A stretch of 32,500 nt of DNA, from assembly GCA_018398765.1 (NCBI GenBank), contig JAHBMJ010000516.1, positions 1-32,500 on the forward strand, read 5' to 3'. Shown in pieces: positions 3,071-28,748 of this stretch. Origin of the DNA: Chromera velia (taxonomy: Eukaryota; Sar; Chromeraceae). Numbering within the stretch: the first letter of the stretch is position 1; every line of letters begins with the position of its first letter. A program made the position numbers and the translations under genes. The notes under the pieces were generated by a model. That model made no database searches and was not told the origin of the DNA. It saw only the letters and a program-made list of their open reading frames with translations.

Positions 3071-5800
3071 TCAATTTGAAACTTTCTCAGGCAGCATGCG
3101 GACTCCGATCAGAGCGTCCCGAGAGAGGAGACCCAGGAGACGGGAGTCCTCCCACCCCTCTGTACCAGAGGGACGCAGGGGGACCACGAAGTACCTGCAG
3201 GCACGGGAATGGGATAGCAGAAACAGGAAAAGAAAGGGGAATATTGTTCGATGAACGGATGCGTTGACGGTTTCACATTCTCCTTTTGAAGCCGTACAAA
3301 CAGTCTGCGCAGAAGAGAGAGAGAAATCAAAGAGAAGCAAACTTTGACAAAAGGACAGAAGAATCCAGGGGGTACACGACGGGCACAGAATGAATGCCCA
3401 TGCATCAAAATGGATCTGACGCACCAGCAAGCTCAAAGCCGTGACAGGACAAAAATGAAGGATAGACAAGACACCCAGAAAGATCGAATCACTCCTCCCA
3501 ACAGAACTGCGTGACACGACAACCAAAGAGCTCCTTTCGTTCACTTCCACGACTTTCTCTGTACATATCTATCTATCTATCTTTCTGCCCCCCCGCTTTC
3601 TTATCTTTTTGCTCTTGCTGAAAGAAAAAACCCTTACTGCATGCCTTCTGACCTGAGGTCGCTCGTGGAGTCATGCACCTCCATTGCCACTCGCTGAGGC
3701 ACACGCGTCCCAAATTCTTCCAGGACTTTCCGAGGCTCTCTCACCACCCGACTCCTGTACCCCCTCGCCTTGTACCAGGACGGGGCACGACCCAGAAGGG
3801 CAGAGGGGTAACAGCTGCACCCATGCAAGAAATCTCAGAGACAGACAGACAGACAGACAGACAGGTCATCCATCGGTGAATGAGAGTGAGTGCAAACGAG
3901 TCAGTGTGGTAGCCAGTGCATGGATCAATCAGTGGGGGGGAGGGAGGGCACGGAAGATTTGGAACAAGAGCTGATGCCAAAGAAAAACGATCTTCCAGGT
4001 TCCCCACGTCATTCTGATACCCGCCCTATGTCCTGCTCTCGAACAGTGACAGCATTGGAAACGCGTGACCTCTGCCAACAGCAGAATGGTGCATTGACAG
4101 GGGTAGTGCAGGAAAAGACCTACCAACCCAGTTTCGTCCTTTTCCCGCTCAATTCGGAAGGAGTCAAGAACTGACCTGCAGAGGGTGCACACGACCACAT
4201 GGTGAGTCTGGTCGTCATCGAACAGCGCCACCAGTTTTCGGAGTTCACCCATCTCGACTCCCATCTCCCTCACGGCACTGGTCGCGTCTTTCTTCAGTCG
4301 GTCTGCAAACTCGGGATCCTTCCACGCCCGCACAACCACACGCAGCCCTTCAGGGTCAGCCTGGGTCGCCTCCTTTTTCTCCACGGACTTGTGCAGCTCT
4401 TCTCTGGTGACCAGACCTTTGGCGATGACGGCGTTGATCAGAGCCTCAGCTATGGCCTGCGGGGCTCAGACATAGGAGGGAGAAGAGTATGCAGAATGCG
4501 TGTGGGTGTATGGATGTGTTTCTTTGCGTGATTTTGTGTTGTACTTGCGGAGAAGTCTAGTCGTGAGGGGGCAAAAGAAAAGAAAAGAAAAGAGAAGAGA
4601 AGGGAATGCCCTCAATTGACGCACGCACCTGTCCCGTCACAGGGGCGCCCTCCTTCTCGACAGCGTTCCTCTCTGTCTCTTCTCTGTCTGCGTGCTCGTG
4701 ATCGTGATCGTGCTCGTGGTGGTCATGCTTGTGCTCTGCGTCTCCGTGTTTCCCCTCTTCCTCTTCGCTGTGCGTCTTCATTCGTTTCCTCAACGGCTCT
4801 TCCGCCTGTTCCCCTGTTTCCGCTGAGGAGGAAGACGAAGAGGAAGACCCCGCACCTGTCACTTCTCCCGCTCCCTTTGAAACTGCAGGAGGCAGACGGA
4901 AGTACGAATGAGAGAGGGGGGGAGGCGGATCAACGTGAAAGAACTCACGAGAGAAGGAATGCAGGATTCCTGAAACTCTAGCTGAGTTTTGTTCCATTGG
5001 ACCACCCATGACGCTTCCAAGAAACAACGAAGAAAAAAAGAGGCCGCGTTCATGGCCAAAGGATAACGGGACCAAAAGGGGCAGACAGAAACGAAGAAAG
5101 ACAAAATGCACGGATGTTTCAAAGTCGGTCCAGAAAGACTAAAACCGCGACCAAAAAAAAAAAAACGACCTGCATCTTCAAGCCAGTGTTCGTAAATCTC
5201 CACGCTCACGCAGTCCTCTGCCTCCCCCCCGTAGTGTTCCCACAGGTCCCCCTGGCGGAATCTGACCAGGTACTCCCGGGCTTTCCTTGGTTGTGCCTTG
5301 CCAAGGGATCCCACCACACTGAACGCCAGAGCCTCGCTGTTATCCTTCTCTCCGAGTACACGGGAGACGGTTCCACAGGCCCCAAAGAGATATCCTGGGG
5401 TACGGAGATGGGGTTTTCTCCACCTGCACCTGTACGTCTCCTCCTTCACACGCACACGGTCCCCTTCTTTGAAGGGAACAGAACGGGGGGGGTCGTGGAG
5501 GAGCTGGGCGTCGATATCATCGGAAGAGAGAGCACCGAACTGGCAGAGACCCTGTGCAAGGGCACACGCCCACTTCGCGTAATACGCAAGGGAGTCGTAG
5601 TCCTTTGGGAGAAGACTTTCAATGTTCCTTCGGAATTGGTCCAAATTCAAGAGGCCCTTTTGGAAACACAAATCCGTCAGAGCGTCTACCTGAACTTCCC
5701 AAAAAGCACAGGGTGCGTCTGCAGACCCGCAAAGGCCAAGAGAAGGAGCATCCGTCCTGCCTCCTGTGTCGTGAATTCCTCCGAATCCGATGTGGGACAT
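3071..5800 (-). CDS. Nitrile hydratase, beta-alpha fusion, cobalt type
   Basis: This protein is predicted to hydrate nitriles to amides in the cytosol; no targeting peptide is seen. Exons on the minus strand are 5800-5170, 4882-4629, 4456-4176, 3814-3653 and 3194-3071. All phases agree, giving 483 residues. Residues 1-210 are a beta subunit: GIHDTGG near the start, then FKEGDRVRVK and VRFRQGDLWEHYGG. Residues 211-295 are a Ser-, Glu- and His-rich linker. Residues 296-483 are an alpha subunit (NHase_alpha family): KGLVTREEL, then the metal centre Cys385-Thr-Leu-Cys388-Ser-Cys390, then SRVVREPRKVLEEFG and PSGTEGW. An intron splits the Ser389 codon inside the metal motif. Thr after the first Cys marks the Co3+ class; Fe enzymes usually have Ser. 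Bacterial enzymes use two genes, whereas a beta-alpha fusion with a His-rich linker is known from the choanoflagellate Monosiga. No activator gene is visible nearby. Assignment is secure; exact exon edges are likely. Confidence 0.93.
4692..4733 (-). other. His/Asp/Glu-rich linker of the nitrile hydratase
   Basis: Residues 261-274 of the fusion protein alternate His with acidic residues (HKHDHHEHDHDHEH), following a poly-Ser and acidic stretch. It joins the beta and alpha subunits. Such tracts bind divalent metals in other proteins, for example the His-rich tails of some nickel and cobalt GTPases. A role as a metal store for the cobalt centre is inference. Confidence 0.8.
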
Positions 5801-6565
5801 GTGGTATTAATATTTTTTCGTTTTCTAGACAGAATTCCCGGAACCGTCTCCGGAGACTTGCAAGAGAACAGATATCATATTTCAAATTCGCGGCTCCTAC
5901 ATTTTTTTTACCAACCTCGCGTTCTCTCACGTATCACACCACTGCGAAAACAGTCCTCAGATGGACTCTTCAAAACAGTGATCAAGGATGTTGACGATGT
6001 GCAAAGCCGATCTGGTTCTCTTCCAAACTCGACTTTGCACCAGAATTGTGATGAATTGTGTGGGTCCCATATGGATCCATATGGTCCCAACGTTCCGCAC
6101 GCATGCAGCATGCGCGCCCGGCGGCGCCATGGCGGCGCGCGCCATTCCGAGCTCATGCAAAGATCTGCAGAGGAGACGGCCATGCAGACGCGCCCAAAGA
6201 TCTTTTTTCGATCCCTCCTGTCCATATTCCTTTTGTCAGACTGCACCGCCGATTCGCGCCGCGAAGAAGCGCCGTGAATTTGCCTCTTCCGAAGTACAGA
6301 GTTCGTCTGCATTCCAAAGTGAAGCGATTTCCGTCATCTGTGAGGATTCGTCCTTTGCTCTTGGACTCCTGTCACCCTGAAATCGAAGCCAGAGGAGACC
6401 CTTGCAAACAACACGTTTGCACGAACACTCACCCAAGCGGCCTAAGCCAGGCAGCAAGGATGAAGACTGTCACAGTTCATCAACAGTGGCAGCTTCCTCA
6501 TCTGTAGGGACACGCCTTTCTCTCTAGCTAGCTGCAGGCCGAACTTCTACGTCTGTCCTGCCAGA
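5801..6565. promoter_or_regulatory. Divergent intergenic region, nitrile hydratase and LRR-kinase genes
   Basis: About 765 bases separate two start codons that point away from each other, so promoters for both genes should lie here. An AT-rich patch (aatattaata, about 5807-5816) is just upstream of the nitrile hydratase start. An 18-base perfect palindrome lies at 6067-6084, and the GC-rich block CGGCGGCGCCATGGCGGCG at 6119-6137. A ctgcag acceptor-like site at about 6532-6537 could mean that the LRR-kinase transcript has an upstream exon. I see no convincing gene inside; the overlapping open frames have no recognisable features. Confidence 0.5.
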
Positions 6566-7365
6566 ATGGAGCGAAAGAATTCTGTGCTCACCGAGGAGGT
6601 CGTTGAGATTGACCAGACAAAAAAGAAGAAAGACATCCTCGCTTTGAAGAACGGAGTGGGCCACAGCCGTACCAAAAGCCTTCGCCTTCGGGTGGTTGCC
6701 CCAACGGACATGGCGGCGGTGGCCGACTTGGTGGCGTCCTTCGTCCAGCAGATCGAGCTCGAGTTCGATGGGACGCACCTCAAAAGCCCCACCAAGCAGG
6801 CTGGTCAGTCAGCCCTACAGGGAGGGACAGGGGAAGCAACCGTGGCTCAGGGTTGTGTCCGCTGCTCCTAACGTCGGAATGTTCCAATACCTGCACATCT
6901 TTCATCGTCCATTCTCCCCGTCGATCTGTTTGCACCCCCTCCCTTCATTCTCCTGTTGGATCTGTTCTGCGTGTGCAGACGCGTTGATTAAGGTGCTGAA
7001 CAAGGCGCAGAGGGTGCAAAAGGTGACCTTCGTGCGCTGGCCTCCGGACGGAGAAAAGTTCGAAAATGTGCTCAAGGCAGTGGTCCCATCCGAGCTGTTG
7101 TCGGTCAAAATCGAGGTGCGCAGCCAGTCAAACCGGATGGATGCACACTCTGACGCTCTCCCTCTCTCTCTGTCGTTTCATGGCATGATGTGCAGGGGGT
7201 TTTGCTGGAAGTTGGTTTGTGAGTGGGAGTCTGCATTTTCATCCGTCTATCTGTGGCTGTGCGCGTGCGTCAATCCAACCTCCTCCTTTAACAAAACGTG
7301 TCCGTATCGGTGTGCTCCTAGTGCTCCGTTTGTCTGTCCGGTCGCCTTTCTTGTTTCGTCACATA

Positions 7366-7425
<60 letters not shown>

Positions 7426-8929
7426 CGCGCGCGCGTGCGTGCAGAATGTTCCGGTGTCAATGAAGGGCCTCTCTCAACTTCACCAACAGCTGTGCAACCC
7501 CTACTGGGCGAGTGAGCTGATCCTGGAGGTCTGTTGGTTTGTCTGCCGAAATCAATGCTTTTCTTTTGGAGACGTTCTTCTCTTTCTGTTTGTAGGTCTG
7601 TTTTTGGTTCCTCATGGTTTCCTTCTCTCTTTCTCTCTCCAAAACGATGCATGGATCTCACATGATCATGTTCAGTGTCCTCTTCTGCGTATGGCATGCA
7701 TGATCGAAAGTGTGCAGAAATGAGTGAGGCTGCAAGGTCACTTTTTCCTTTTGTGTTGTCCTTTTCTGTTTGCAGGAGATGTCCTTGGAAGGGTCAAAAT
7801 TTTCTCTCATGCTTGGAGGGGTCCGTCAGTCCGTCGATCCGTCTATATTCCTTTTCCTTCTTTCTTTGTGTCTCCCTTTTCCTCTCAATTCTCTTTCCCT
7901 TGCTCCGACAAACTGATCCTCTCGCGTCCTTTCTGCTTCAAGGCCTCTTTCCATGCTTTGACACGTGAGCTTGTCCCAGGGGTCGTTTTCTGCTCTCTCC
8001 AAATGAGAAGAAGCGAGTTTGCGTACAACAAACTGCCTTCTGTCTGGCCTCGGTGACCCCCCCACATTCGCCGCACTGCTCCTTCCTGAGTCCAATCGAT
8101 GCGCTCACAACTCTTTTTTGAATGCAGACTGAAAGGAAGTGTCTGAATACATTTATTTTCATACAGAATTCTTTCATACAAAATAAATGCATGCATGCAT
8201 GAATGCAGACTGAGGAGAAGTGTCTGAAAAAACTGAAGCTTGTCAAGATCACCCCGGCCCCTCTTCCACGCCAGGTCGGCCGGCGGGGCCGTAGCTCTCT
8301 CTCTCCAAGCTTTCTTTCTGCTTTTTCCTTCCCTTCCCTGCACCCACCTAGGATTCTTCCTTCTCAAATTGGATTCTTCACTTCGTTTCTCTTGTCCTGT
8401 TTTGTCTATCTCCTTGCGTTGTCTCTACTTTGTACCTCTGCATGCCCGTGTCATCTCGAGAAAAGTGAATGATCTCCCCAGAAAGAACACTTCTTCTCAT
8501 GTCCTGTGATGTGTTGCTTCATTTGTGTGCAGCTTCACACGGTCCTTCCCCCCATGCGCTCTCGGCTGGAGGTCCTGGAGATTGCAGAGTGCGGTCTGCA
8601 GGATGGGGGGTTCTCTGCAGTCCTCCAGACTCTCCTCTCATCCGAGAAGGGCAACAAAAAGGAAAAGGAAAAAAGGGCACGAGGGCAGGAAGCGAATGCG
8701 GCAGCGGCAGCAGCGGGAAGACGGGACCCGATTCTGTCAACCCTTTTGCTGCCCGACAATTCTTTGACTTCCAAGGGTCCGTCTATCTGTCTTGTCTGCA
8801 TATTCTATTGAGCAAGCCCGACAGTAAGAATGGAAACCGGATGGATTTCTTCGTGGATCCGTGGTAGAGGAAAGGGAGATGATCGTTTGTCTGATGCATT
8901 TTTTTTTGGGGGGGGGGGGGGGGGGGGGG

Positions 8930-8963
<34 letters not shown>

Positions 8964-10500
8964 TTAAATTTGATTATTCCGTGTTTTTCCCTATTTCACC
9001 ATCCGCTTTGGGTTTCTTCCCCTTTTGCTTTCCTCCGCTGCCTCTCTTTTCGTCCTCTGAGCGATTCAGTGAGAGTGAGTGTTACAAAAGAAGAGCGTTT
9101 CGTCTCTCCGCCCTTTCATTTTTTGTGCAGCTATCGATGCCCTGAACGCGTGCCTTGTGAAGGAGAGACAGTGCTCTCTCAAGATAATAGACGTCTCTGG
9201 AAATGCGGTGGGTCTCTCTCTCTCTGGAATGAAGATCCGCTCTCGATTCCGTTCCTGAATCTTCCTCTGACAGTCTGCTTTTTCTTTCTTGGCCCTTTTT
9301 GTCTTCCGAGCAATCATGGAGTGAGTGTTGTTGCAAAGTGAGCATCTGAAGGGAAGCTTCTCTTCTTTGTTTTTTTTTCTTCTTTCTCCCTTTTCTTGTT
9401 TTCCACAATTAATCTGCCTCCCTGTCTACCTTTCTTGACTCTCTGTCGCCTCGCCCCTCCACGGTTCGGCTTGATGGATTCATTGATTGATCAGTTCATC
9501 GGTCCGCTCCCATCGAAAATATCTGACAGGCTGGACTGCGGACTCGTTGACCCATGCACTGGCGCTTTGACTGACTATCTGATGGATGAACTGCTTTCCT
9601 GCGTACCCGCCTGCCTGCCGTTGCAGATCGGGTCCGAGGGCGTCGAGATGCTTGCAGCTTCGTTGAGTGACTCTGGATGGGGTCTGAAGAGTCTCTCGAT
9701 TGACAGAGTCGGTGCAGGGGCACAGGCTCTGTGCAAGCTCGCTGTGGCTGTAAAAGGACACAAACACCTCGAGGCTCTCTCCTGTGAAGGTCAGATGGGC
9801 AGACGGATAAACAAAGCGACAGACAGAGAACGGACGTGGGTCTTTTCTCTTAATTGGCAGATGTGGTTCGTTCCTTTTCAAAAATTCAATCGCCTTTCTC
9901 TTTAACATCAGGATGCCACGACTGTCGCCTTTTCGCGTTCGCGCAAGAACGACGAGTTTATTTGTATATGCGTATATGTGCAGGCAATGAGATTCGGAAA
10001 AACGAGAAGAAGCCACTTGCTGACGCGTTCGTGGCTGCGCTGCGGGTCCCCAAGGTTCCTCTGGAGGAGGTCAGGGGGGTCCCTCTGCAATCGATGAGCG
10101 ATACGGAAGGTGAGTGAGCCGGGTGCCTCCAATTGATTGACTCATGGATGTTATTCATTTTCATTCATGCTGAGTCCACGGCTTGCAAGGAATGCATGAT
10201 ACACGATCAATGCCGTCTCGGTTTGCAGTCAATCAGTTCGCAGAGACACAAAGAGCAGAGTGAAAGAATTTTTTGTGCGGTCTTGTGCCTGTGGTCTGCT
10301 GAAGAGACGAGATATGTGAATGGATGATGGACCCATGAAGGGTCCAATTAAGACAGCATGCTTCAATAAGTGAACGAACTCAAAATAAACGAACTGACGC
10401 TGCAGCGTTGAAGGCGATTCTCCAGGCCCACCCCCAGGCGAAACAGAACGGAGAGGCGCTCGGACGAGCTGTCAAGGGTTCGTGGTGTGCTGTCATCTAC

Positions 10501-10541
<41 letters not shown>

Positions 10542-13500
10542 TGTGTGGCATGCCGAAATGTTGTCGGGGGATCGTTGGATCCCGTCGGATCGACTTGACT
10601 GGATGGATGGATGGATGGATTTGTGTTTGGGCTGTGAATTTGAGATTGGAACTTTGGAACTTCGGGGTTCCTGTTGTGCGTCTGTCCCTTAATTCAGCCT
10701 CCTCCTCTTTTTTCCCCCCTCCCTGTCTTTTTTTTGGTGACGTTATGCTTTCTTTCACCTTCGTTTGTTGCGGATGTCTGGCGCTCTTGCATTAGGAGGG
10801 CCATCAAAGATGACTAGTCAGTCCCACTTTGCAAAACATCTGTCGCTCCCCACATTTGACTCGTTTGCCTGTCTTTCTCTGATTGTTAATGAATGAGCAG
10901 GTTGGAAAGGCATTGTCGAGGTGAACTCTGATGGCATTTCTGCTCTGTCTGGGGAGGGTGAGGAGGAGGGGGAAGAGGGGGAGGAAGAGGAGGGGGGAGA
11001 GGACGAAGAGGAAGAAGAGGAGGGGGAAGAGGACGAAGAGGAGGAGGAGGAGGAAGAAGAGGAAGAGGAAGAGGAAGGAGAGGAAGAAGAGGTTGAGGAA
11101 GAAGCAGAAGAGGAGGAAGAGGAAGAGGAAGCAGAAAACGAAGGCCATCCACAAGCTCCTGCAAAGAAGGCTGCCAAGGGCAAAAGACAGAACGCGGCAG
11201 CAAGTAAGCCGAAGGCGAAGGCCAAAAACAAGAATGGCGTTGTGCCGGTGAAGAAACGTCAAGGGGGGGTCGAACCAGCCTCCCGGTCTCCCTCGCCGTC
11301 TCCAAAGAAACGTGCCCCAAAAGCCAAAGCCCCTGCTGCTGCTGCTGCAGCAGCTGCTGCTGCTGCTGCTGAGGCAAAGACAGAGGAACCGTCTTCCTCT
11401 TCCGGTCGTTCCCAGACGGTTTCACAAAGGGGCAAAGCCAAGGCAAAACCAAAAAGCAAGCCTCCGCTTCCCCCCAAGTCCCGTCCCCCCGCCCCCCCCG
11501 CTCCCTCCCATATCCTCGTGGCAGAGCCTGAAGACGACGATTCAGAGGATGCCCCCCTGTCCGCAAAGCGCCAGAAATCGATGCCCAAGGCGAGGAAGAA
11601 GAGGAGGAAGGTCATTGAGGAGACGGATGAAGAAGGGGACGATTCAAAACTGAAAGAGCAAGAGGATGCAGACCTCCAGGCTGCACTCGATGCGTCAATG
11701 GGTGAAGGAGCAGGAGAAGGGGGGGAGGTTCCCATTGACCCTGCCAATCTCTTCCCAGAAAATCTCATGGGGGATTCATTTGCCCGTCCAGGACTCCTCA
11801 GGCCCCCAAAAGGAAAGGGAAAAGCGAAGGCCAGGGCCTCCCAAGATTCTCAGGGGCCGCCCCCGACCGAGCAGAGAGTCCGAACGAGAGGAGGTAGGGG
11901 GGGAGGCAAACGCGCATCGTCTTCTCGAATGCCCGCTGCGGATCCTCCCGCTGTAGCTGCAGCCGCTGCCGCAGCAGCAGCCCCCTCACGTGGAGTGAAG
12001 GAAAAGTCTGAGGGGCCCGATGCTTCTGCCGCACCTGTAGAGGAACCGGAAGCGGCAGCGAGGGTGGCAGAAAGAGAGGAGAAGGAGAAGGAGGAGGATG
12101 AGACCTCTTCTCTAGGACCCCCCCTTCCTCCCATGCCTCCCTTGCCGATGGGTTTTTTTGACGGAGGGCCTGTAGAGTGGCCCTCTGGGCCTTCCGCCCC
12201 CTCTAGGGTAAAAAGCCCAGTGCACTGGGGATGGCAAAACCTGGGAAGGCAGGTAAAGCAAACAGAGAGGACCCTCCGAATGCAAGAGGGGACATTGAAA
12301 ATCTCATCGATGAATCAGCGGGATCTCCACCAACACTTAGCGTTGGAGGCTCTGAAACTGAACTTTGGTGGAGCTGGAAGACATCCGTGGTCTTCGTCGG
12401 TTCGTCCCTCGATCTGCTTGTGTGTGTGTGTNGGGGGGGCGTCCTTCCATCTGTCCGTATCTCTCTTGCCGTTTTTGGTCTTCTTCTGGTATGGTTTCAA
12501 TTGTGATGTTTCTCTCTTCCTTTCTCTATCTCTCTCTCCCCCTCTCCCTCGCTTTGCCTTGCTTTCTCGCAGTCGCTTTCTTGCGTTTCCTCACCCACGA
12601 TCGTTTAGTCCGACCTGAATCGTTTCAACCCGACCCAGAGTTGTATGACTAGATTGACAGACGTACGGCTTCTTTTTTTTCCTTTTTTATGCTCATAGGC
12701 CGACTCATTCTCTCTGAATAGGCTCCTGTTGACCCACTTTTTCAGAGCTTCTTTCTCTTCTCCCGCCTCTGTGTTCTTCCCCTTCCCCTCCCTCTGCATG
12801 CAGCTGCTTCCCCTGTTGAAGGGCCACGAGGGCCAGCAGCTCCTCGCCCTTGAATGCCTCTTGAAGGACCCTTCTGACCACAATCTCTGCTTCCCTGTCG
12901 TGGCACTCCTAGAAGACGTCCTCCTCCGCTGCACACCCCCTAACCTGAACATCCGTCTCCTCATCTCCACCGTCCTGGAGGACCTCTTGGTGGATAACTT
13001 GACCTTCAAATTTCAGGTGCGTGCGTGCGGGGGAGGGAGCATGGGAGTATCGGGAGGATCCATCGTGTGTTTCTGTTCATTCATTTTATTCTGCTACATG
13101 CATTCTTTCTTGCATCAGCAGAGCAGACTCAAACGAACATCGATCGCCTTCTTGCATGGGCGTGATACATTCATCTTCTTGAGTAGCCTCAGTATTCCTT
13201 TTCACGCTCAGACAGGCCTTCAGACAGCCGTATAGTTCAGTTGCAAGAAATCAAGTGAGGGCCTGGACCCGAAAAAGAGAAATTAAGTCAACGCATCCCC
13301 TCCCCCTGCAGAGGACCAACTGCATCGAGTACCGAGACTCCATCGCAGAAGGAATCTTCATTGACGGGGGGTCTGGAAATCCGGTCAGTCAGTCAGTCAG
13401 TCAGTCAGTGTTTCTCTCACCGCATTTCTTTTTCGCTTCGGACGGTTCGTGACGGTGGTTTCTGTTCTGCATACGGAGGTGAAGTGCGAATGTGTGATCC

Positions 13501-15432
13501 TGTCTATCTCTATTTTTTGGTGTCCGCCAGCCTTCGTGATTGTTCGACCTCTCCGGTTTCGAACGTCCTTTTGTCTTTCAACGTTCAATTCCAATTTTCC
13601 TGGAAAAGTCATGTGAGTCGACCTTCGATTTGGCCCAGTGGCTCCAGACTCACGTACTTGACAGATCTCCATCTACCTGAATCTCTCCCATGTTTTTCGT
13701 GTGTGTCGATTTTCTTTCTTTCCTTCAGGCCCTGAGTGCGTCCGAGTTTCGGGTTCTCTGGCTCCACAAGCACCGCGTTCTGCAGCCCCGTATCGATCAC
13801 GCGAGGACGATCAGCCATCGGCTGCATGGCGGCATTGGCAACCTCAACAACCATCTGGGTCTTTCTGGCATGACTGGGGCAGACGGGATGGGCCCGGGGG
13901 AGGGTGTGTTTGGTTTTGGCGCTGCAGAATGTCTGGACGGGGACGAGACGTTCAGGGGCGACCTGACTGCCTCAATCTTCCCTAATGCATTCAAACTGAC
14001 GGCAGAATTGGCGGGAGGGGCCGCCAAGGGCTCCATTCCCCCCCGGCAGCACTCTGTCGAGACCATACCCCCTGACGGCCCTCCTTCGCCTGCAGTCGGG
14101 GGCATGGCAGGAGCTCCACCGAAAAGCAGGGGGATCCGAAAACAGCCAAGAGAGCCTGGCAAAGGTGGTCGCAGCAGTATTGTCGGGCCACCCATTGACA
14201 TCTCCGACGACGACACCAGCAGGCTCCCCTCCGAAAGGGGGGTCCGAACGGCGCCTCCTCCTTTAACCACCCCCCCTCCAATTGAGAAAGAGGAGGAAGA
14301 CTTAGGGGTTCTGCATCCCCACGTAGATGACCTGAACAGTGAAGGGAACAGGTCGAGGAAGTCTCGGATGTCCCGACGGTCCTCTCGTCGTCCTCCCCCT
14401 CCTCCGTTTCTTCTTCCTGAAGAAAACGGACCCGTACACGGACACGCTGCTGCCGGAATTTCGCGCGCAATCAGCGAACGATCGGAGTCTGTAGTGGCAG
14501 TCGAGGCCCCCCCACCAGCCGCTGCTGCAGCTGCCGCAGCCGCTGAGTCTTTTTTAAATGTGAATGAGCATGGAGGGTCAGGGATTGCTGGAGATGGGAT
14601 TGGGGGTGAGGGTGTAGGGGCGTTTCCACGATCTGTGCGGAGTTCCGCACGCCTAGGTACACGGGGGGCAAGGGGGGTGCAGGAGGCAGCAGCAGGGGAA
14701 GAAAACGACGAAGTGATCTCGGTGAGGTCCGACTCCCCACCTCCTCTAGAGGCCAACAAATCAGCTGCCCCTCCTGTAGAGCAACACCCGCAGCAGCAGC
14801 AGCAGAGAGAGAGGGGGCATCCGAGACACCACCACACAGAGCAATTCCAGTCTGTGCTCTCTGAACTGTCAGATTCGGACGAGAAGATGGGGGTGGATGT
14901 GAGAAGGGCTCCGTTGAGAGGCACTGCACGGGGCCAATCCGGAGGCACGGCAGTTGGGAGATTGGCTCCTTTCCGGGACCCGGCATTGCTGTTCGGTGGG
15001 GGGGGGGACAGAAGGCGCACAGCGAGGGCGGGGCTCGTTGGAGCACGGGGGGAAAAGACGTCTGAGAATTTGCAGGTTGATGCGAGTGCTTTTTTGTCCG
15101 CTTCTTCTCCCTCTTCGTTTTCTTCCAACACGTCTCCGGAACCTCTGAACAACAAGAGGAAGAGAACGCGACAACAGAGAGAGAGAGAAACCCCCGCACC
15201 CCCCCATGCAGCGGCTGCAGATGGAGGGGGCGGGCGGAGTCTGACAGGTCGCGGGGGGGGTACAGCAAGGGCAGGGAGGGAGAAGGGAATGCTTCAGCGA
15301 GAGAAGGAGAGGGAGCGGTTGGCAAAGACCCAGCGGTCGATAGAAAGGAACCGACAGTCAGACTGGCTGTCCTGCGTCGGAGAGTATTTGGAAAACTTTC
15401 CGGAAGCGAACCGCATCTGCAGGTCTGGATGG

Positions 15433-15467
<35 letters not shown>

Positions 15468-18400
15468 CATGCGGCTTTTGCCTGTTCCCGAATGTCCTGC
15501 TTTTCGCGTTCCCATTTTTTGGTCTCTTCCGGTGTGCAGGAACACATGCATTCGGTTTCCTCTATCCTGGCACTTTTTGAATCATTGGCCTTCCTTTGTT
15601 TGGCTTTCTCTCTCTGACAGACTGTGGCAAAGTGACTCGCAATAGCTCTTTCTTTCTGTTTGCTTGTTCTGCTGTGCAGGGCCCATGAGGCTTCCTCGAA
15701 AGGGGCAGAACCGGTGAAGAAAGAGGGGGGAGGAGGAGGGGCAGCTACCGATTCCCGCGTCCTTCTTCCACGGGAGTGCAGGTGTCGGGAAAATTTGATC
15801 GTGGACGTCTCCTCAGACAGGCACCTTAAGTCCGTGGAAAGAGAAGGGCCTGATCTGTCTGTCTCTCTGTCTGTCTGAAGGAAAAGGAGAAGGGCCTGTG
15901 TCTGGCTCCTGAATGGAGGGGTGGCTGCGGAGAGAAGAATGCTTAATAAGATCGTCCCCCATTCCTCTCTGAATCCATTTCATGAGTATCGTGGATCTAC
16001 ACGAAGGCGCTTTTCCTTTCTTTTTCCCTTGAGAAGTCGCGCACGCAAGCGGAGTGCGTCCCTCCGTCCGGACTTTTTCTTTCGCTCTTCCGCTGGTTGA
16101 CTTTGTCCCTTTTGTTCCTTCATTTGTCGGATTCAGTGAGGTCGTTTTCATCTGTCCTTTGCGGAAGTGTAAAGGCATACGTGTGTGTGTGTGTGTGTGT
16201 GTGCAGTTTTGCCATCAGCAAGATGAGGGAGCAGAAAGACTCGGAGCCCGACGTCTTCAGCTTCGTTCAGTCGATCAAGCGCTTCGTCGAGAAGCAGGTC
16301 GGTAAATCAATCAATCTGCCTGCTGGGCAAAACAAACATGGGGGAGGGAGGGAATGTGCGCATGCCTGTCTGTCTGTTGCATTGGGTTGCTGCACGAGTG
16401 CCTCAAAGTACTTTCTTTTCCTTTCCTCCTCTCCGAAAGAGAGGAAAGAGCCGTTCTCAGATGTCGAAAGGAATAGACACGAGCCACAGACAGTCATCGC
16501 ATGGTCCGCTTTTCCTCCCATTGCCAGAGTGTCTTCAGAAATCCGTTTGGCCCGCCCCCTCCCCCCCGTGAGAGCAGGTGCGTCTGGACAAAAGTCTGGA
16601 GAGCGTTCGGAAGATCGCGAAAGAAAACTTTGGGTTCGTTCCATTAGGAGCAGTACGGAGTGGGGCGTGTCGACACCGTGCGCTCCTCTTCAAACTCCTC
16701 TGTGACGCCTGCAAGGTGCCTTGTGCAGTACAGAGAGAGAGGCGGCACGCACCGCAGCAGAGTGCCTCCTCTAGTTCTTCCTCTTCCTCTGCTTCGTCTT
16801 CTTCGTCTGCCTCAGCCTGTACATACGAGGAGATCTACTTCAACAAAGTGATCATCAAGAATAATGTGGGTGAATGAGAGACAGAAAGTTGGAATGAAGG
16901 ATGGATGCCTATTCATTAGTGTTGTCCGGAGAAAGAAAGGGACGGGGACGCAAGAAGGCAGGGAAAGGGGTGGTAGTTCGACTCCGGCCTCCGCCTTGCT
17001 GATGTTCGGAAATTGGTGCCTTTTTTTCTATCGATTTGTCTATGCCTGGACCTGTCTGCATTCCCAGACGTACGCTTTTTTGCAGCTGTTCATCCACTGA
17101 GGGCGTGGGGTTTCGCCTGTGTGTGAAACCACCTGCGACTAATGCATCAGCAGTCAGATCCCCAAAACCAACAAACGTGCAAATAATTTGTTTGATTACG
17201 ATCCTCTTGTCTAATTCGGGTGTGCAGGTGAAGGATCCCCAAAACGACAACACGTTCCATGACGTTGAGACGGTCCACTTCTTTTTTTGGGAGGAGGGCG
17301 TGACGGCCCTGCGTGTGGCGAAAATGAGACAGAGGGCGATTGGCAGAAGAGACTGGCGGGTCTTCGAACTGATGTCAGTCTCTGTCTTTGTCTTTGTCTG
17401 TGTTTGTCTGAGTCTCTTTCATTCTCTGTCTCTGTTTCTCCGTTAGTACGGAAAAGAAAGAAATGCGAAGTCTGTCAAGGTCCGACGTGTTTCTTCTTTC
17501 TTTGAGGGTAGAAGAAGGAAGGGGGGGCCGAGAGGCAGACTGTAGAGATGCAGCTGAGGAGCTTTCCGTCTAGTTCAAGGTGTTGCTTTCCCCCGTTTCT
17601 CTGTCCCGCTCGGCGCGTTTGAACGGGGGCACGTAAGCTCCTTTTTTTCGCCTCTCATTTGCGTGTCAACATCTCCTCATGCTTGCATGCCTTTCTGCAT
17701 CCTCTGCCTCTCCCTCCTTTCGATGGAGACTTACAGGCTCGGAGAGTGCACTGGTGTGGGTGCCAAAACAAAACAAGGGGAGGCCTCTGCTGTCCAGGTC
17801 CCTGTGAGTGAGGTCTTCGGGTTCTCTGGCAGCCTCGGGAGGGGGTCCTTTGGGGAGGTCTGGAAGGTGAACGTCCGAGAAGACGTCAGTCGATCTGTCG
17901 GAATGCACAGACAGGAGGGAGTGGTGAATCAATGGGCATCCATACGCCTTCCTTTTGCGTCGTGAGAGTCTTTGAGTGGTTGAGGAATAGTTAGAAAGGA
18001 AGCGATGCACTGCTCAGGGCATTTTGCAGGTGAGGCCCAATCAGTCCTCCCAGTTTTGCGAAACAGCCTCTTCCCCCCTTCCACCCTCTCCCTGCAGGCC
18101 AAGCCCCTTGATCCGAAGCACACGGTGTGCCACGTTGCGGCCCAAAAGGAGAAATCCCGGAAGGTGCTCAAGGAGAAAGAGAAGCCCACCGGCAAGGAAA
18201 AAAATGGAAACGGAAAGAGAAGAGGATCAGCAGCAGCAGCAGCATTGGTGGACAAAGAAAAAGACAAGGAGAAGCAAGAGCAAGCACAGAACAAAGACAA
18301 AGGCCCGCTACCCCACCTACAGCCCATTCCTTCGGCAGCCGAGCGCAGAGCCTCCCAAGCGGGACTTGTGCGTGTGTTGATGGGGGACGCTGCGTCTGTC

Positions 18401-21400
18401 TCGGCAGCAGGTGCGGCGGTGTCAAAGAAGGAGACTTCAGCAGAGACGGGGGCAGACGAGGGAGGTCTCCTGGCTCTGAAGATGAATCCGTACGAGTGAG
18501 TGAGTGAGTGAGTCTGTTTGTTGAAAATGGAGATAGATGGATGTGTGTGGGGTGCCTCGAGGTTCTTTCAATGTCAATTGAAAGAGTAGCCAAGTAGACA
18601 AGCGAAGGATGGCGTGGGATTTCTCGTTTTGTGGTTGTGTGTGGAAGTAAAAGGAAAGGCACCTTCGCGAGACGCCGAGGGACAAAGTGGCAGCTCCGGC
18701 TTTATGAGAGGATTCTGTTTAGCACCTGAAAAACATGGAGAAGAAGTGAGTTTGCTGCTAGTCGATTGAAATCGAATGAATTGGATGTGTCCTTCAATTG
18801 ATTGCAGCACATACACTGTGGAGGAGGCTGAGCTGTTGAATGCTTTCTCTCATCCTCGTGTGATCCGGTGTCTCTCTGCCTTCTGTGGGGAGACGGCAAT
18901 GGATCCCGAAACCTTGAAGGCAGCAGGAGAGGGGGGTAACAGCAGTAGTGCGTCAGGGGAGTCGGGGGGGGAAGGGGCGGGAGGAGGGGATCCAGAGTCG
19001 AAACTTTGTGTTCTGATGGATTTGGCGGACGGGAACCTCGGTGAGTGACTTCTTTACCCTTTCTTTCCTTATGTGTGCGTGTGTGAGTGTGTGCGTTTCG
19101 AGATGGTCCGACAGTTGCGTGGCTCTCTGTGGAGACTTGAATGAGGTTTTGAGCATGTCGCCAGTCGTTGATGTGGGGCTCGGGATTCGCTTTAATAGTC
19201 CTTCATTCTTTTCGTGCCTGCCTGTCTCCTTGCAGAAACCGTGATGGAATATTTTGGTGTTCCTACGGACGGAGAGAGGCAGCGGCAGCTGGAGAGAGAC
19301 AGGATACGCAGAGCTCTCGCAGGGCCTGAGGGCACGGGGGGGGGAGGGAAGGAGGCAGAGGCAGAAGAGGAGACCGCAAAGGGGCGTCCTCTTCCTCCCA
19401 GACCTCACGCAGTCAACAGAGACGCCTGTGCTCCTTCCTCTTCCTCTTCTGCATCTGCCTCTGCGTCGTCTCAGTGCAACCCTGCAGCTGTGATTCGGGG
19501 AGAAACTGCGGAGATCGGAGGGCCACAGCGGTCGTCTCTGCCTCCTTCAGTCGGGGGGCAGGGGCAGGGGCAACCGCCGCGCGGATTTTTGGATTCATCC
19601 TTCGTCCGCAGAGTGTGCTTAGATGTAGCTCGGTCAGTCTCTTTTTCCCTTGCTTCCTTTTTGTACAAACTGGGCTTTCCTCGTCGTCTTCATTCTTTCT
19701 TCGTTGCTTAATTCTTTCTACTAAAGCTATTGAGAGTCTTTTTTCCGCCGCAGACATCTTCCCTCGCCTACCCACCCCTCTGTGCGTGTGCATATAAATC
19801 CATCGGTGGCCACGAGTCCCAGAAAGATTCCTTCCTAATTTTATCCCTCACTTCTCGCTTTTCTCTCTTCTTCCGCTTCCTCCCCTCTCACCCTTCGCTC
19901 TCCCCTGAGGTCTTTGTCCAGTGTCAGCTCTCCTTCTGTCCTTCCCTCATTCCCTTCCTTGCGCTTCTTTCCCACCGGACGTCTTCTTGCCCTTGCAGCG
20001 GTATGCAATTCCTGCACAGAAGCAAAACGACCAAGGGGACCAGCTCCTACCTCCTGCACCGCGATCTGAAGCCAGCGAACATTCTCCTCAAGGTCGGTCG
20101 ACCCTTGTAAACCTACACGCACATTTGCATGAAGGGACAAAATAACAAACACGCAGACGCACGAATGCATACAAAGACACACACGCTCAAACAGAATCCG
20201 TTCCCTCCGTGTGGTGAAGAATTTGTTCTACTGCCCTGTTCTCTCTCTCAAAGACCGCCCTGTCCTGTCCGTTTGTTCTCTCTCTTCTCAGCCTCCTGCA
20301 TCTCAGAATGGCTCTGTGTGTGTCTCTGTCCTCTGGTCGTCTTTTTCGATCTGGCGCCGCTCTTCTTGTGTCTGCGTGCATTTATACATCTGTCTGCGTG
20401 TCTGTCTGTCTGTCTCCATGCAGGGCGGCCGGGCGTTGGTGTCTGACTTTGGAGTCGCGCGGGAATGCGACGACTTTGACGACAACATGACCATGGGCCC
20501 TGGGACTCAGGGGTGAGTGCCTTGTTTTGTACGGGGAGGGTGAGTGCCTGTTGTTAGGGGGAAATGAGAACCTCATTTGTGTGGTGGGTGAGTGCCTTGT
20601 TGCTACCTGAGGTGTGTGTCTGGTTGGTCCATGATTTGACTGCCTTCCTCTTGATCTCCTTCCTCCTCCTCGAGGTCTGTCGTCTCCATCCCTCCCTCCC
20701 TCCCTGCCCCCCCCCGCCCTGCCTGCATGCAGATACATCGCCCCCGAGCAAGAGACGACGTGCTACGGGAGGTCTGCTGACGTGTGGTCCTTTGGGGTGA
20801 TTCTGGCCCAGATGCTGGGGTACCCTGACTGGAGGGAGCTGAGTGCCAGGGACCCCAAGAAGGCAGCCAAGAAGGGATGGCACCAGGCAGACGTTCTGGG
20901 TGAGAGTCTGAACGGGGCTTGTGGAGTTTTGTTCGAGAAGTTCAAAAACAAAGATTCCTTCCTGGTGGCACTCTGCATCAGATGCCTGGAGAAGATTCCC
21001 GCCTTGCGGCCGGACTTCAATCAGATTGTCAGGTCAGTTCATCTCTCAAAAGAATTGAGTGGACGTGCAACTGTTGATGCAGATGAGTCCAGAAAGTCCT
21101 TCGTGGCAATGTTTGTTCAGCTAACGTGGTCGGGTCTCCTCTGGTTCCTTCCATCTCGAGGAGAGGAAAGCCGTCGAATAATCGGATTTGTTCAATCAAG
21201 CTTTTTATTTGGACGCGGGGGAACGTTTGTTTCCTTCCCATCTGTCACTCTGCTTTGTCAGTGTGCCATTTGTTTTTATATTTTCCCATCATTGCATATT
21301 TTTGTGTGTGCCTTCTCCGTGAGTCTTCAATCCTTCTCTCTTTTTTTGCTTGAGAGAAATCTCTGTGCAGACTTTTGAAGGATGAGATCTTGAGGGAAGA

Positions 21401-21911
21401 GTTTGACGTCATCTGCTCCAGGCGTCCGTCTCTCAGCCTGCCAGGGCCACTGTCTTTGAGTCCCGGGACGGCATCGGGGGTGCGGGTGACAGAGGAGAGG
21501 AGGCGAATGCACCGGCTGGCCGTTGCGGCTTTTGCGGTCTGGCCGCAGCTCCTTGGGGAGGAGGCGCCGCCCGAGGCACTGTCGGCGGGGGGGTTAGGCA
21601 AGGGGGGGGGGGGAGGGGGTCGAGCGGGGAAGGGGAAGAAACGGGGGCCCGAGGACGGCGAGAGAGAGAAGGAGAGAAGAGACGGAGACGGGGGAGGTGT
21701 AAAGCGTCGGAAGGTCCTGAAAGCCTCTTCTTCTGCTGTTCTAGAAGACGGCCCTCCGGAGGGGGGGGGTCTGGGGGCAGTGGAGAAAGAGCCGCCTGAG
21801 CAATGGGCCTGCCGCAAGTGCACGATCTTGAACGACGCCTTGATGCATCGGTGCAGTGTCTGCAACGGGCTGAAACCCCGTCTCTCTGCAGAGAGCCAGA
21901 GAGAAGAATGA
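6566..21911 (+). CDS. Giant LRR / EDR1 / protein kinase / zinc-finger protein
   Basis: The model has 26 exons: 6566-6803, 6979-7115, 7445-7528, 7776-7820, 8209-8274, 8533-8776, 9131-9207, 9627-9789, 9984-10109, 10406-10477, 10901-12252, 12804-13016, 13312-13383, 13729-15422, 15680-15829, 16207-16297, 16578-16865, 17228-17373, 17737-17866, 18098-18495, 18808-19040, 19236-19632, 19999-20092, 20424-20512, 20733-21032 and 21371-21911. Every junction keeps phase; the total is 7440 bases, about 2479 residues, ending in TGA. The start ATG has A at -3 and G at +4, but an acceptor-like ctgcag just upstream leaves room for a longer N-terminus. EDR1 plus kinase recalls plant EDR1/CTR1-type kinases. The LRR, ubiquitin-type motifs and zinc finger are additions I do not know from that family. 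Several basic clusters suggest nuclear entry. Weak points: the exon 11 donor (12252) is one of several choices, exon 18 ends by phase logic, and an N lies in intron 11. Two adjacent genes remain possible. Confidence 0.72.
7366..7444 (+). repeat. (GT)n(GC)n tract abutting a splice acceptor
   Basis: About 75 bases of strictly alternating purine-pyrimidine sequence, GT repeats then GC repeats, run straight into gtgcgtgcag, the acceptor of exon 3. The acceptor therefore has no ordinary pyrimidine tract. Such tracts can adopt Z-DNA. Confidence 0.85.
8120..8228 (+). repeat. Local duplication of the exon 5 acceptor
   Basis: 28 bases at 8120-8147 recur at 8201-8228 with three mismatches. Both copies contain the acceptor gaatgcag and the first codons of exon 5 (ACTGA...AAGTGTCTGAA). 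Only the right copy continues in an open frame to a donor (8274); the left copy meets a stop and no donor. Confidence 0.75.
8899..8962 (+). repeat. T9-G24-T31 homopolymer block
   Basis: Nine T, 24 G and 31 T follow one another in intron 6. This may be a true G-rich structure-forming tract, but homopolymers of this size are often misread or misassembled. Confidence 0.8.
10901..12252 (+). other. Disordered acidic/basic segment with a UIM-like motif (exon 11)
   Basis: Residues about 418-868. A run of about 60 Glu-rich residues (436-498) is followed by Lys/Ala/Pro-rich sequence, two poly-Ala runs, a basic cluster KARKKRRK that could be a nuclear localisation signal, and an RGG-type patch. At residues 672-686 the sequence EQEDADLQAALDASM matches the ubiquitin-interacting motif pattern: acidic stretch, Leu, x-x-Ala, x3, Ser. 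The donor at 12252 (CAG|gtaaag) fits phase; the frame stays open beyond it, so a longer exon is possible. Confidence 0.65.
12253..12803 (+). other. Intron 11, with possible unrecognised exon and an assembly N
   Basis: Two frames remain open to about 12420, one with SPPTLSVGGSETEL-like and one with NQRDLHQHLALEALKLNF-like sequence, so part of this may be coding. Position 12432 is an N between a GT repeat and eight G bases, meaning the assembly is unresolved here. The right part is pyrimidine-rich and ends in a ctgcatgcag acceptor. Confidence 0.5.
12432..12432. other. Unresolved base (N)
   Basis: A single N sits between a (GT)n repeat and G8, within intron 11 of the giant gene. It marks low sequence quality or a closed assembly gap. 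Confidence 0.95.
12804..13383 (+). other. Helical block upstream of the EDR1 half (exons 12-13)
   Basis: Residues 869-963 are rich in Leu and predicted by eye to be alpha-helical (GQQLLALECLLKDPS, VVALLEDVLLRC, RLLISTVLEDLLVDNL). Armadillo or HEAT-like repeats are a possibility because animal ARMC3 joins armadillo repeats to an EDR1 domain. The match is not strong enough to assert. Confidence 0.4.
13384..13410 (+). repeat. (GTCA)n microsatellite starting at a splice donor
   Basis: Six GTCA units begin exactly at the exon 13/intron boundary (AATCCG|gtcagtcagtca), so the donor motif GTCAGT is repeated every 4 bases. Confidence 0.8.
13729..15422 (+). other. Long disordered segment with SUMO-interaction-like motifs (exon 14)
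   Basis: Residues 964-1528. After a short ordered start (SASEFRVLWLHKHRVLQPRI) the sequence is low complexity: Pro, Ala, Gln and Arg/Gly runs. P1118-I-D-I-S-D-D-D matches the SUMO-interaction pattern of hydrophobic core plus acidic tail, and V1292-I-S-V-R-S-D-S is a second, weaker match. KRKRTRQQ near the end is a possible nuclear localisation signal. The donor is TGCAG|gtctgg. Confidence 0.6.
15433..15467 (+). repeat. (GT)n microsatellite
   Basis: A GT dinucleotide run lies near the start of intron 14. Confidence 0.8.
15680..17373 (+). other. EDR1 domain (exons 15-18)
   Basis: Residues about 1529-1753. The diagnostic stretch in exon 17 is LGAVRSGACRHRALLFKLLCDACKVPC in pattern, with the conserved G-x-C-R-H-R-x-L-L-F-K core at Cys1639 to Lys1647, as in plant EDR1/CTR1-type kinases and animal ARMC3. 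A poly-Ser insert interrupts the domain before YEEIYFNKVIIKNN. The exon 15 donor at 15829 (CTTAA|gtccgt) was chosen because it alone gives phase 2 into exon 16. The end of exon 18 is the least certain. Confidence 0.75.
16181..16206 (+). repeat. (GT)n ending in a splice acceptor
   Basis: A run of GT units ends in gtgcag, the acceptor of exon 16. This is the second case in this gene where a GT repeat stands in place of a pyrimidine tract. Confidence 0.75.
17737..21032 (+). other. Ser/Thr protein kinase domain (exons 19-25)
   Basis: Residues about 1780-2300 carry the usual kinase landmarks in order. The glycine loop is GRGSFGEVWK (1787-1796). The likely beta-3 lysine is Lys1924 in LLALKMNPY, followed by a helix-C Glu in VEEAELLNAF. 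The catalytic loop HRDLKPAN has Asp2161, SDFGVAR has Asp2178, and YIAPEQ and SADVWSFGVIL follow. Lysine after HRDL points to Ser/Thr specificity, and nothing essential is missing. Two low-complexity inserts of about 100 residues are unusual: a Lys-rich one between beta-2 and beta-3, and a Gly/Pro/Ser-rich one before helix E. Confidence 0.9.
21804..21863 (+). other. C-terminal RanBP2/NZF-type zinc finger
   Basis: Trp2445, Cys2447, Cys2450, Asn2454, Cys2461 and Cys2464 form W-x-C-x2-C-x3-N-x6-C-x2-C, the RanBP2 finger pattern. Ubiquitin-binding NZF fingers usually have Thr-Phe or Thr-Tyr after the second Cys; here it is Thr-Ile, so ubiquitin binding is possible but not assured. Confidence 0.85.
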
Positions 21912-23688
21912 CTGACCTGACTGAAAGACAAATTTGTGTCAGGCAGAGTTTCTCCAGAAGAAAGAGAGGGAAGGGTGGAAAAACGGGCCGAACCATCGAA
22001 ATCTAATTCTGTGCAGTAAGGATGGTTCATCGGCTCTGCACTCCCCCCTTTCATCTCCTGAGCGCCCCTGTACTTGTACAAAGACCTCTCTGCTCACTGG
22101 GCGCCCTTTTTGGTGGACTCTCTCTCACCGTCGGCACACTCCGTGGAAAGCTTTTTGTGCCTTCGGTAAGCTGATCGATCACTAGATCGATCAGGCTGTG
22201 TCACTTGAATCCCTGCTCGATCGTCCGTCCATTAGTGCATCGCAGCGTTTTTTGTATGACTGTCTGCCACAGGCTGCAAGGTACCCCAGTGCCCTGTCGC
22301 TTTGATCTCACCATGTATAAAAACACCGTTCATTGCGGCGTTCAATAAATTTAAGTTACTTTCTATATTGTAAACGTATAGATTGCAAAAGCATTTTAAT
22401 AAGTGATTACGCTTGAAAAAAACCATAAATTTAACTTAAATCTGCTAGTAAATCTAGCGAGCTCTATAACTATTTGTTTTGAATGTTTTCAAATGAAAAA
22501 ATAAAAAATTAGAAAAATTATTATCTATATATATAAATATCCAACCTCAATAATAAATTAGGATAGGATAGGATATACGATTAACGTATGGAGAATTGGC
22601 CTCCTCATGCAAGCCCTCCTGCCCCAATGCCGAGCGTTCAACATGTGGCGTCAAACTAGGGCGTCTAGCTAGGGCGTAACGTAACCGAATAGGACTTAGG
22701 ATAGCATTGATATTCCAGATTTAAAAAAATAATTAATTATAGAAGAAATCGAAACTTCAATTTCTAATTTAATTATAGTCCAAGTTTTTAATTAGAGTTG
22801 TTAGACTATAGTCTCTAGTTGTTAGAGATATTGCCTAATACTGCCTAACTAGGGTAAATACTCATGCATGACCGCCCTGCTAGCTCTGGCGACAGATAGA
22901 CATAGCGGAAAGGCCCTAGGGCGGAACATATCAATCAATCAATCAATCAATCAATCGATCAATCAATCGACCATTATTCGGGCCCCCGCGCTAGCCCCCG
23001 CAGGTCAAATATAGTACAGAATTTCGGTATCTATAGTTACGTATGAAGTATTTATAATTAAGGTCAAACGGTATATGTCATCCTAGATGTCATCAAAAAA
23101 TAGCTTTAAAATGTTTCCTAGAATGTTTCCAGTACATATGTTTTCTTCCACGCTCAGCGTAACGCGCTTGCAATGAAACAACGGCTGGAAAGAGACACGC
23201 GAGTCACAGTAAAAAGCGGCCTCTCTTGATCTCCCTCGGAAACTGGAAAAAGGAAGAAGAAGCCAAAGAATGGCTGGCATTGAAGAAAAACAAACAGCCT
23301 TCACTTAACCTGAGGCTTTCCGGAACCCATTGATATATCTCGTCTCGATCTCTTCCATCCACACGCCCGCAGAAAGAGAAACAATTCTCTTCCCAAGCCT
23401 CTTCCTTTCCTGCATCGCTCCTCAACCCCTATCTGCCCCTTCGGACTCTCTCCCTGTATCTCTGCAGAACTCTGGGCCAGACCATCCACTGGCAAGGCAA
23501 CCAAATCCGTCTCTCAATTCGTCCCAACGACCTCTTTCACCATTCCCTGCATTGATAATTATTTCCCTGACCAACCCCACCACAACCCAACCCCATGCAT
23601 GCAATGAACTTTTAATTTCCCACTCCGTTCTCTCTCGCCGGCATGTCTCTTCTCCCCTCCTACCTCGATCTCTTCATGCAGGAATCCA
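21912..23688. other. Convergent intergenic region with an AT-rich island
   Basis: This lies between the 3' ends of the LRR-kinase gene and the GCN5 gene. About 22310-23100 is strongly AT-rich with short palindromes and an imperfect hairpin near 22728-22780. An (AATC)n run sits at 22932-22970. From about 23340 to 23690 the + strand is pyrimidine-rich. No gene or RNA was recognised. The island may be transposon remains, but no terminal repeats or coding domains support this. Confidence 0.45.
22932..22970. repeat. (AATC)n microsatellite
   Basis: Tandem ATCA units, with one or two ATCG variants, lie in the AT-rich intergenic island. Confidence 0.85.
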
Positions 23689-27838
<4,150 letters not shown>

Positions 27839-28748
27839 TTTGAAGGAACAGCGTGAAGAATGATCGACGAGCTAAACAGTAATGGGAGGGAGAAGGCAAC
27901 CGATCCCTTCCCGTCGATTGGCCTTCACCCGACTTGCAGCTTCGATCAGATAGAAGACAAACAAGAGGCGCAACCCTTCAAGTCAGTGCAGAGGCATCGA
28001 TCTTCCGCAGGAACGAAAAACAGCGTCGCACGGAAAATTTCAGACCAGATGCATGAAGCAGAAAACAACTCCAGTCAGTATTGCTGTGCTGCAAAATGTC
28101 GGCTTCACAAATTGAAGGGCAGGCAGCTATATTAATATTGAGTGATGCGCGAAGCTGATGTACGCCGGTCAAATTGGCCAACGAATATGGGAAGGGTGTT
28201 GAAGTGCTGTCATGTGCATGCTGTCACTCTTTGATGAGGGTTGAGCCGAGCTCGATCGACTGAGCAATAGGAGACGGCGGCGCCAGAAATTCGCCTTCGC
28301 GCGCGCGTGCGCACCACGCGGCGGCGCCGCCCATCTGCCTCTACAACAAAAATCGCGAACAGACCGACAAAGATGCAGACTCGGACAGAGCAGTGAGAGC
28401 ACTGGTCTTATCTGGTCCGATCGCTCGATCCGCAGATTCGAATCATCTCAGTAATTCTCAGGGACGATGCTTTCCAATCCAAAAGCTGCTTTTTGTACCT
28501 GCCTTGTTAGGTCTACTCATTCTCCGGCGACATACTTTCTTCCGCAGCCGATCTTGTTCCCGTCTCGTCTATCTGACTGGGTCCCGTCTCCTCTGTGTCC
28601 GCCTGCTTTCCATGCTTTGGCACCGTCTATGTTGTTCCTCCACGGTGTGCACAGATAGTTTGACTAGGTTGTCTCTCGAGTATCTGCGCTGTTTCGGTGA
28701 ATAAGAAAAAGAAAGGATCAAAAAAAGAAACGATACGAAGGGAGGGAG
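27839..28748. promoter_or_regulatory. Divergent intergenic region, GCN5 and TFB2
   Basis: About 910 bases separate the two start codons. A CpG-rich block at about 28271-28332 holds CGGCGGCGCC twice (28275-28284 and 28319-28328), flanking an alternating CG run (cgcgcgcgcgtgcgc). The same 10-mer is in the other divergent spacer of this window. No TATA box is convincing. Frames at 28393-28704 are open but show no known domain and lack splice support. Confidence 0.45.

Follow-up and report, generated by a model that had tools for sequence, protein, structure and literature searches.

A predicted EDR1-type protein kinase with leucine-rich repeats and an NZF-like finger in the photosynthetic alveolate Chromera velia

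Gene model

The window analysed here is a 32,500-nucleotide stretch of Chromera velia DNA (C515:1-32500), from a genome of 177.8 Mb in 4040 contigs. Its forward strand, on which all features of the gene are given below, carries a real and intact-looking gene at 6566-21911, an in-phase open chain of 26 exons with GT-AG borders at all 25 introns. Exons were assigned by hand on 6001-22600 and then joined; rebuilt from the raw sequence, the chain runs from an ATG at 6566 to a stop at 21909-21911 and comprises 7605 nt with a single terminal stop, giving a protein of 2534 amino acids. The introns are 175-423 bases long, and 21 of the 25 end in TGCAG.

The first-pass annotation had spliced 26 exons in phase into about 2479 codons, and the rebuilt chain reproduces this length (2479 amino acids) when the donors at 12253 and 17867 are used, which close exon 11 at 12252 and exon 19 at 17866. 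Exon 11 probably ends at 12399, past the alternative donor at 12253, and this end is preferred because 12253-12399 scores as coding in frame. This segment, which lies outside the training set, gave +0.18 bits per codon, compared with +0.07 for the best of 284 intron windows and a mean of +0.48 (lowest -0.09) for 106 exon windows, nearly all of these comparison windows being themselves training data. Exon 19 probably ends at 17884; the donor that follows at 17885, GTCAGTCG, has the form GTCAGT, the commonest among the donors (6 of 25, counting itself).

Within window positions 8121-8228, intron 4 contains a sequence that by eye almost repeats the first part of exon 5 (TGCAGACTGAAAGGAAGTGTCTGAA versus TGCAGACTGAGGAGAAGTGTCTGAA), so that part of this exon is duplicated immediately before it.

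Leucine-rich repeats and the middle region

The domain order proposed at first pass, from leucine-rich repeats (LRRs) through a disordered region, an EDR1 domain and an active-looking kinase to a zinc finger, is borne out by profile and phmmer matches and by the catalytic motifs of the kinase. In the profile searches LRR_6, EDR1 and Pkinase pass their cut-offs, and the RanBP finger falls short of its own. The N-terminal part is encoded by exons 1-10 (6566-10477, residues 1-418), with the LRR evidence confined to exons 6-9. Residues ~192-418, with one insert cut out, matched ribonuclease inhibitor by phmmer at E = 1.4e-10 when summed over four partial alignments and at 4.3e-4 in the best single alignment; further matches included angiogenin inhibitor, NLRP5 and other LRR proteins, radial spoke protein 15 among them. 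One repeat passes Pfam LRR_6 (24.5 bits versus a cut-off of 23.4; residues 286-307, 9172-9656), and LRR_8 is absent from the Pfam matches at E ≤ 1. Searched against its own genome, the LRR query gave at least 47 matches (102 of 166 candidates scored), at least 10 of them on the same contig and at least 37 elsewhere; the latter are read as generic repeats because all fall within query residues 203-378.

Exon 11 (10901-12399) begins with an acidic run (70% Glu across residues 430-500), continues as A/P/K-rich low complexity and ends in a tail without a homologue; its sole Pfam match, to YL1, lies below the cut-off (19.3 versus 29.2). Exon 12 (12804-13016) is a helical stretch, for which AlphaFold2 run on the single sequence gave three helices at a mean pLDDT of 66.6; no relative was found in Pfam, by PDB sequence or by fold. 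An armadillo/HEAT or TFIIS-N-like bundle was considered for these three predicted helices and is not claimed, the best fold match having E = 3.1. Exons 13-14 (13312-15422) are by composition mostly low-complexity linker, and exon 14 has no Pfam match at E ≤ 0.01. Three basic clusters, KKRRK, KRKR and KRRK, occur in the protein at residues 650, 1488 and 2466.

EDR1 domain

Exons 15-18 (15680-17373) encode an EDR1/CTR1/ARMC3 peptidase-like domain (PF14381) whose core is broken by a Ser-rich insert. The score depends little on the end of exon 15, for which there are two candidates, 15829 and 15856, giving 44 and 46.2 bits, respectively; the shortest variant gives 43.1, so that the domain lies above the Pfam cut-off of 27 in all three splice variants, as in an EDR1/CTR1-type protein. 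A PDB search with the EDR1 region returned two matches, both spurious hits to the Ser-rich insert.

The family motif SGACRHRALLFK retains its Cys, at 16668-16670, and the available text of PMC10318531 places EDR1 close to the C71 and C93 peptidases. These features would suit an EDR1 domain with catalytic activity, as a cysteine peptidase or in the manner of a transglutaminase, under control of the kinase, an alternative that we consider very unlikely: the core carries the Ser-rich insert, no clear His or Asp partner could be seen by eye, without a family alignment, and human ARMC3 is described in the same text as inactive and devoid of catalytic residues. The predicted fold of exon 17 (pLDDT 49) is too poor to judge catalysis. 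The EDR1 family was found at one place in the genome, this gene (one candidate, one scored), and in none of 14 control genomes, in a search that could miss a copy split over small exons.

Kinase domain

A protein kinase with low-complexity inserts follows in exons 19-25, its last residues extending into exon 26 (17737-21032). Pfam Pkinase matches at 91.4 bits (E = 8.1e-26), and the catalytic motifs are present: the Gly loop at 17837, the beta-3 Lys at 18479, HRDLKPAN at 20057, DFG at 20445 and APE at 20740. The kinase thus looks intact, and activity is predicted from these motifs. A kinase with its catalytic motifs downstream of EDR1 is the arrangement of the EDR1/CTR1 type.

With the inserts cut out, the best PDB match was TAK1 (E = 2.4e-18, residues 7-260 of a 264-residue query), followed by BAK1 and BRI1, among 576 sequences under 1e-10; with the inserts left in, BAK1 leads. 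The best 60 of the 576 also include NEK2, PKA, MEK1 and CDK2 further down, and CTR1 is absent from these 60, a spread of matches that does not mark the kinase as Raf-like. NCBIfam returned generic kinase matches alone, far below their cut-offs. Against its own genome the kinase query gave 29 matches, five of them in this gene. A query for the EDR1-kinase join found six pattern-matching stretches in viral contigs, none of which was a relative by tblastn.

One gene or two

The LRR half and the kinase half meet at intron 11 (12400-12803), and the support for joining them comes from gene structure alone. Homology matches span splice joins within each half (LRR, exons 6-9; EDR1, exons 15-17 or 16-17 depending on the variant; kinase, exon 19 onward), and none spans the join itself: exons 11-14 match no Pfam family above its cut-off, and the stretch from the exon 11 tail to the start of exon 14 gave a single PDB match, at E = 0.59, and matched nothing but itself in its own genome. 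The locus could accordingly be divided into two adjacent genes, one for an LRR and acidic protein from 6566 to about 12618, as far as the exon 11 frame stays open, and one for an EDR1-kinase-finger protein from an in-frame ATG at 12798. A single N inside a TG run within intron 11 also counts against one gene, as does exon 12, which is weakly coding in frame (+0.08, versus -0.44 and -0.32 in the other frames) even though it belongs to the training data.

Several features of the join nevertheless make two genes unlikely. The ATG at 12798, the sole upstream in-frame start, sits inside a splice acceptor, GCATGCAG, and the ATGCAG form recurs in four of the 25 acceptors of the gene. Intron 11 is intron-like in its AT skew (-0.58, with 71% pyrimidine; the other 24 introns have a mean of -0.30 and a range of -0.59 to +0.06) and differs in this from the flanks of the gene (-0.03 at 5807-6565 and -0.06 at 21912-22200). 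Its 404 bases lie inside the length range of the 25 introns. Exon 12 needs phase 0, which both donor options of exon 11 leave. None of AATAAA, ATTAAA, TGTAAA, AGTAAA and TATAAA occurs in 12253-12803, whereas AATAAA is found past the stop, at 22344; the argument is weak, as AATAAA also lies within introns 4 and 9 (8182 and 10384) and the five poly(A)-like hexamers may not be the signal of this lineage. All three frames of intron 11 have non-coding scores (-0.56 to -0.74), which adds little because this intron belongs to the intron training set. A scan of 12200-12900 for bacterial-type promoters and terminators found nothing on the plus strand and two terminator-like sites on the minus strand, and is uninformative for a eukaryote. 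On gene structure, the two halves probably form a single predicted gene, and it is likely that both lie on one predicted transcript.

C-terminal finger

The chain ends in an NZF-like finger (21801-21878) with a clean W-x-C-x2-C-x10-C-x2-C pattern, the NZF core, and a Thr after the second Cys: WACRKCTILNDALMHRCSVC. The first-pass annotation had called it a RanBP2-type finger, and this description holds in part: the C4 pattern is clean and nucleoporin fingers match it, but the Pfam RanBP finger (PF00641) reaches 15.8 bits against a cut-off of 27, and NZF fingers match best when fingers are scored singly. A 37-residue query against the PDB found Nup358 at 2.6e-7 and Nup153 at 3.3e-5, both summed over several fingers, then RNF31 at 4e-4, TAB2 at 5.7e-3 and ZRANB2 at 0.066. 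With the 27-residue core the order was the RNF31 NZF (8.3e-4), Nup153 (5.9e-3, two fingers summed) and the TAB2 NZF (9.4e-3), and scored per finger TAB2, at 18.8 bits, exceeds the Nup153 fingers at 10.8 and 12.2. By sequence, then, the finger is nearest to the RNF31 and TAB2 NZFs when these are scored singly, with nucleoporin fingers close behind.

The RNF31 finger reads ubiquitin. The TAB2 finger does so too, according to the accessible part of PMC6220233. In the Chromera protein, the NZF-like finger probably recognises ubiquitin chains or targets that carry ubiquitin. At the position of TAB2 F675 it has an Ile, and the same source describes the TRABID counterpart of F675 as important for chain binding.

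A Ran-binding, nucleoporin-like or RNA-binding finger, on a kinase acting in the nucleus, is a doubtful alternative. The best summed PDB scores belong to Nup358 and Nup153, and the three basic clusters would allow entry into the nucleus, where the first-pass annotation suggested that the protein acts. On the other side, RNF31 leads with the 27-residue core, a single TAB2 finger outscores both Nup153 fingers, RNA-binding ZRANB2 reaches only E = 0.066, and the Thr behind the second Cys is shared with RNF31 and TAB2, which leaves the finger a weak sign of a nuclear role.

Comparison with known systems

The first-pass annotation knew of no EDR1 kinase with N-terminal LRRs and a C-terminal zinc finger. 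As regards the LRRs, this is contradicted by the excerpt of PMC11096116 available to us, which describes Raf-related EDR1 + LRR_8 + Pkinase proteins in streptophytes, including Arabidopsis AT1G04210, and holds that the combination probably arose in the streptophyte ancestor; a partial text of PMC3847131 lists At1g04210 as a putative LRR protein kinase. The combination of LRR, EDR1 and kinase is therefore already known, in land plants. The same three kinds of domain stand in one protein in the AT1G04210 type and on a chain of predicted in-phase exons in Chromera, a likeness in domain content. The Chromera protein is different from the streptophyte ones in its ribonuclease-inhibitor-type LRRs, its long charged middle and its finger. 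Its repeats match LRR_6, whereas the plant repeats are LRR_8, and the excerpt of PMC11096116 mentions neither ribonuclease-inhibitor-type LRRs, nor a finger or acidic middle, nor an alveolate host.

Other large signalling proteins share parts of the architecture. LRRK/Roco kinases are likewise very large proteins in which LRRs stand ahead of the kinase, but Pfam scans of pieces covering nearly the whole Chromera protein found no Roc or COR domain. In animal ARMC3 an EDR1-type domain stands behind a repeat domain, as in Chromera; the repeats of ARMC3 are armadillo repeats and it is not known to have a kinase, whereas the Chromera protein has a kinase and no ARM repeat in the Pfam scans. Over its full length the kinase finds its best PDB match in TAK1, and the TAB2 NZF is among the matches of the finger, with the difference that TAK1 and TAB2/TAB3 are separate chains in animals and kinase and finger lie on one predicted chain in Chromera. 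We know of no EDR1 domain or LRR in TAK1. To our knowledge, plant EDR1 and CTR1 kinases are likewise without LRR or finger; what they have in common with the Chromera protein is the fusion of EDR1 to a protein kinase, and the available text of PMC10318531 describes such fusions as frequent among EDR1 proteins.

No report of the order LRR-EDR1-kinase together with a finger was found in the paper listings and passages covered by the literature search. The main text of the Phytophthora infestans kinome paper (PMC3019232), as far as available, names none of EDR1, CTR1 and RanBP.

Proposed mechanism

Our tentative best explanation, held with somewhat less than even confidence, is that the locus is one gene for a large MAP3K-like kinase of the EDR1/CTR1 type, with a regulatory EDR1 domain, contacts through the LRRs and an NZF-like ubiquitin reader. 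What is observed is an exon chain that stays open and in phase, together with the homologies of its domains; that the locus yields one transcript, that the kinase is active, that the finger binds ubiquitin, and each of the regulatory steps are inferred. The ribonuclease-inhibitor-type LRR would bind a partner protein, and EDR1, just upstream of the kinase, would be a non-proteolytic docking and restraint module. Binding of ubiquitin chains or ubiquitinated targets by the finger would cluster and activate the kinase, comparable to the proposed recruitment of TAK1 to K63 chains by TAB2/TAB3 in animals. Long charged linkers would join the modules, the basic clusters may permit nuclear entry, and output would pass through the kinase with its HRDLKPAN loop. 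For the animal system, the accessible part of PMC5632801 gives as the accepted view that TAK1 is activated by K63 chains by way of TAB2/TAB3, and reports that activation also occurs without TAB2/TAB3.

A bolder reading, which we regard as fairly improbable, takes the protein as a single-chain counterpart of TAK1-TAB2, in which a photosynthetic alveolate would have an EDR1-type MAP3K with its own ubiquitin reader and LRR. If the single-chain reading is true, one polypeptide would recognise partners, sense ubiquitin and provide the kinase output, and EDR1 kinases would prove able to carry an NZF-like finger of their own. LRR + EDR1 + kinase would then predate the streptophytes or have been invented twice; a member outside plants would imply an older origin or convergence, as against the origin in the streptophyte ancestor proposed in PMC11096116. 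A natural fusion of an EDR1 kinase with such a finger would also point to a possible connection of EDR1 kinases with ubiquitin.

Genome context

Alveolin-type IMCp gave 11 matches from 16 candidates in the genome, and the same model matched one of the 14 controls, Caulobacter. The RuBisCO large subunit gave one match (35.2 bits), with a model that also matches five of the 14 controls. This match, an N-terminal piece (L026, G000:C1339:27717-27845), lies in a short open frame with intron-like sequence at both ends; it presumably represents form II, as which it reads. Taken with the modest size of the genome, the alveolin and RuBisCO matches suggest a chromerid such as Chromera velia.

Two neighbours of the gene lie on the minus strand of the window. 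At 3929-5806, the N and C domains of nitrile hydratase beta (51.5 and 48.8 bits, respectively) are followed by an alpha domain (82.7 bits), with a His/Asp/Glu-rich stretch between the beta and alpha parts, and the locus may encode a beta-alpha fused eukaryotic nitrile hydratase. At 23689-27871, a weak match to an acetyltransferase (15.4 bits versus a cut-off of 20.7) lies upstream of a bromodomain (97.8 bits), perhaps in a GCN5-like gene with many introns. The stretches 1001-2000 and 22001-23000 are AT-rich, with a GC content of 0.34 and 0.41 compared with mostly 0.48-0.61 elsewhere in the window.
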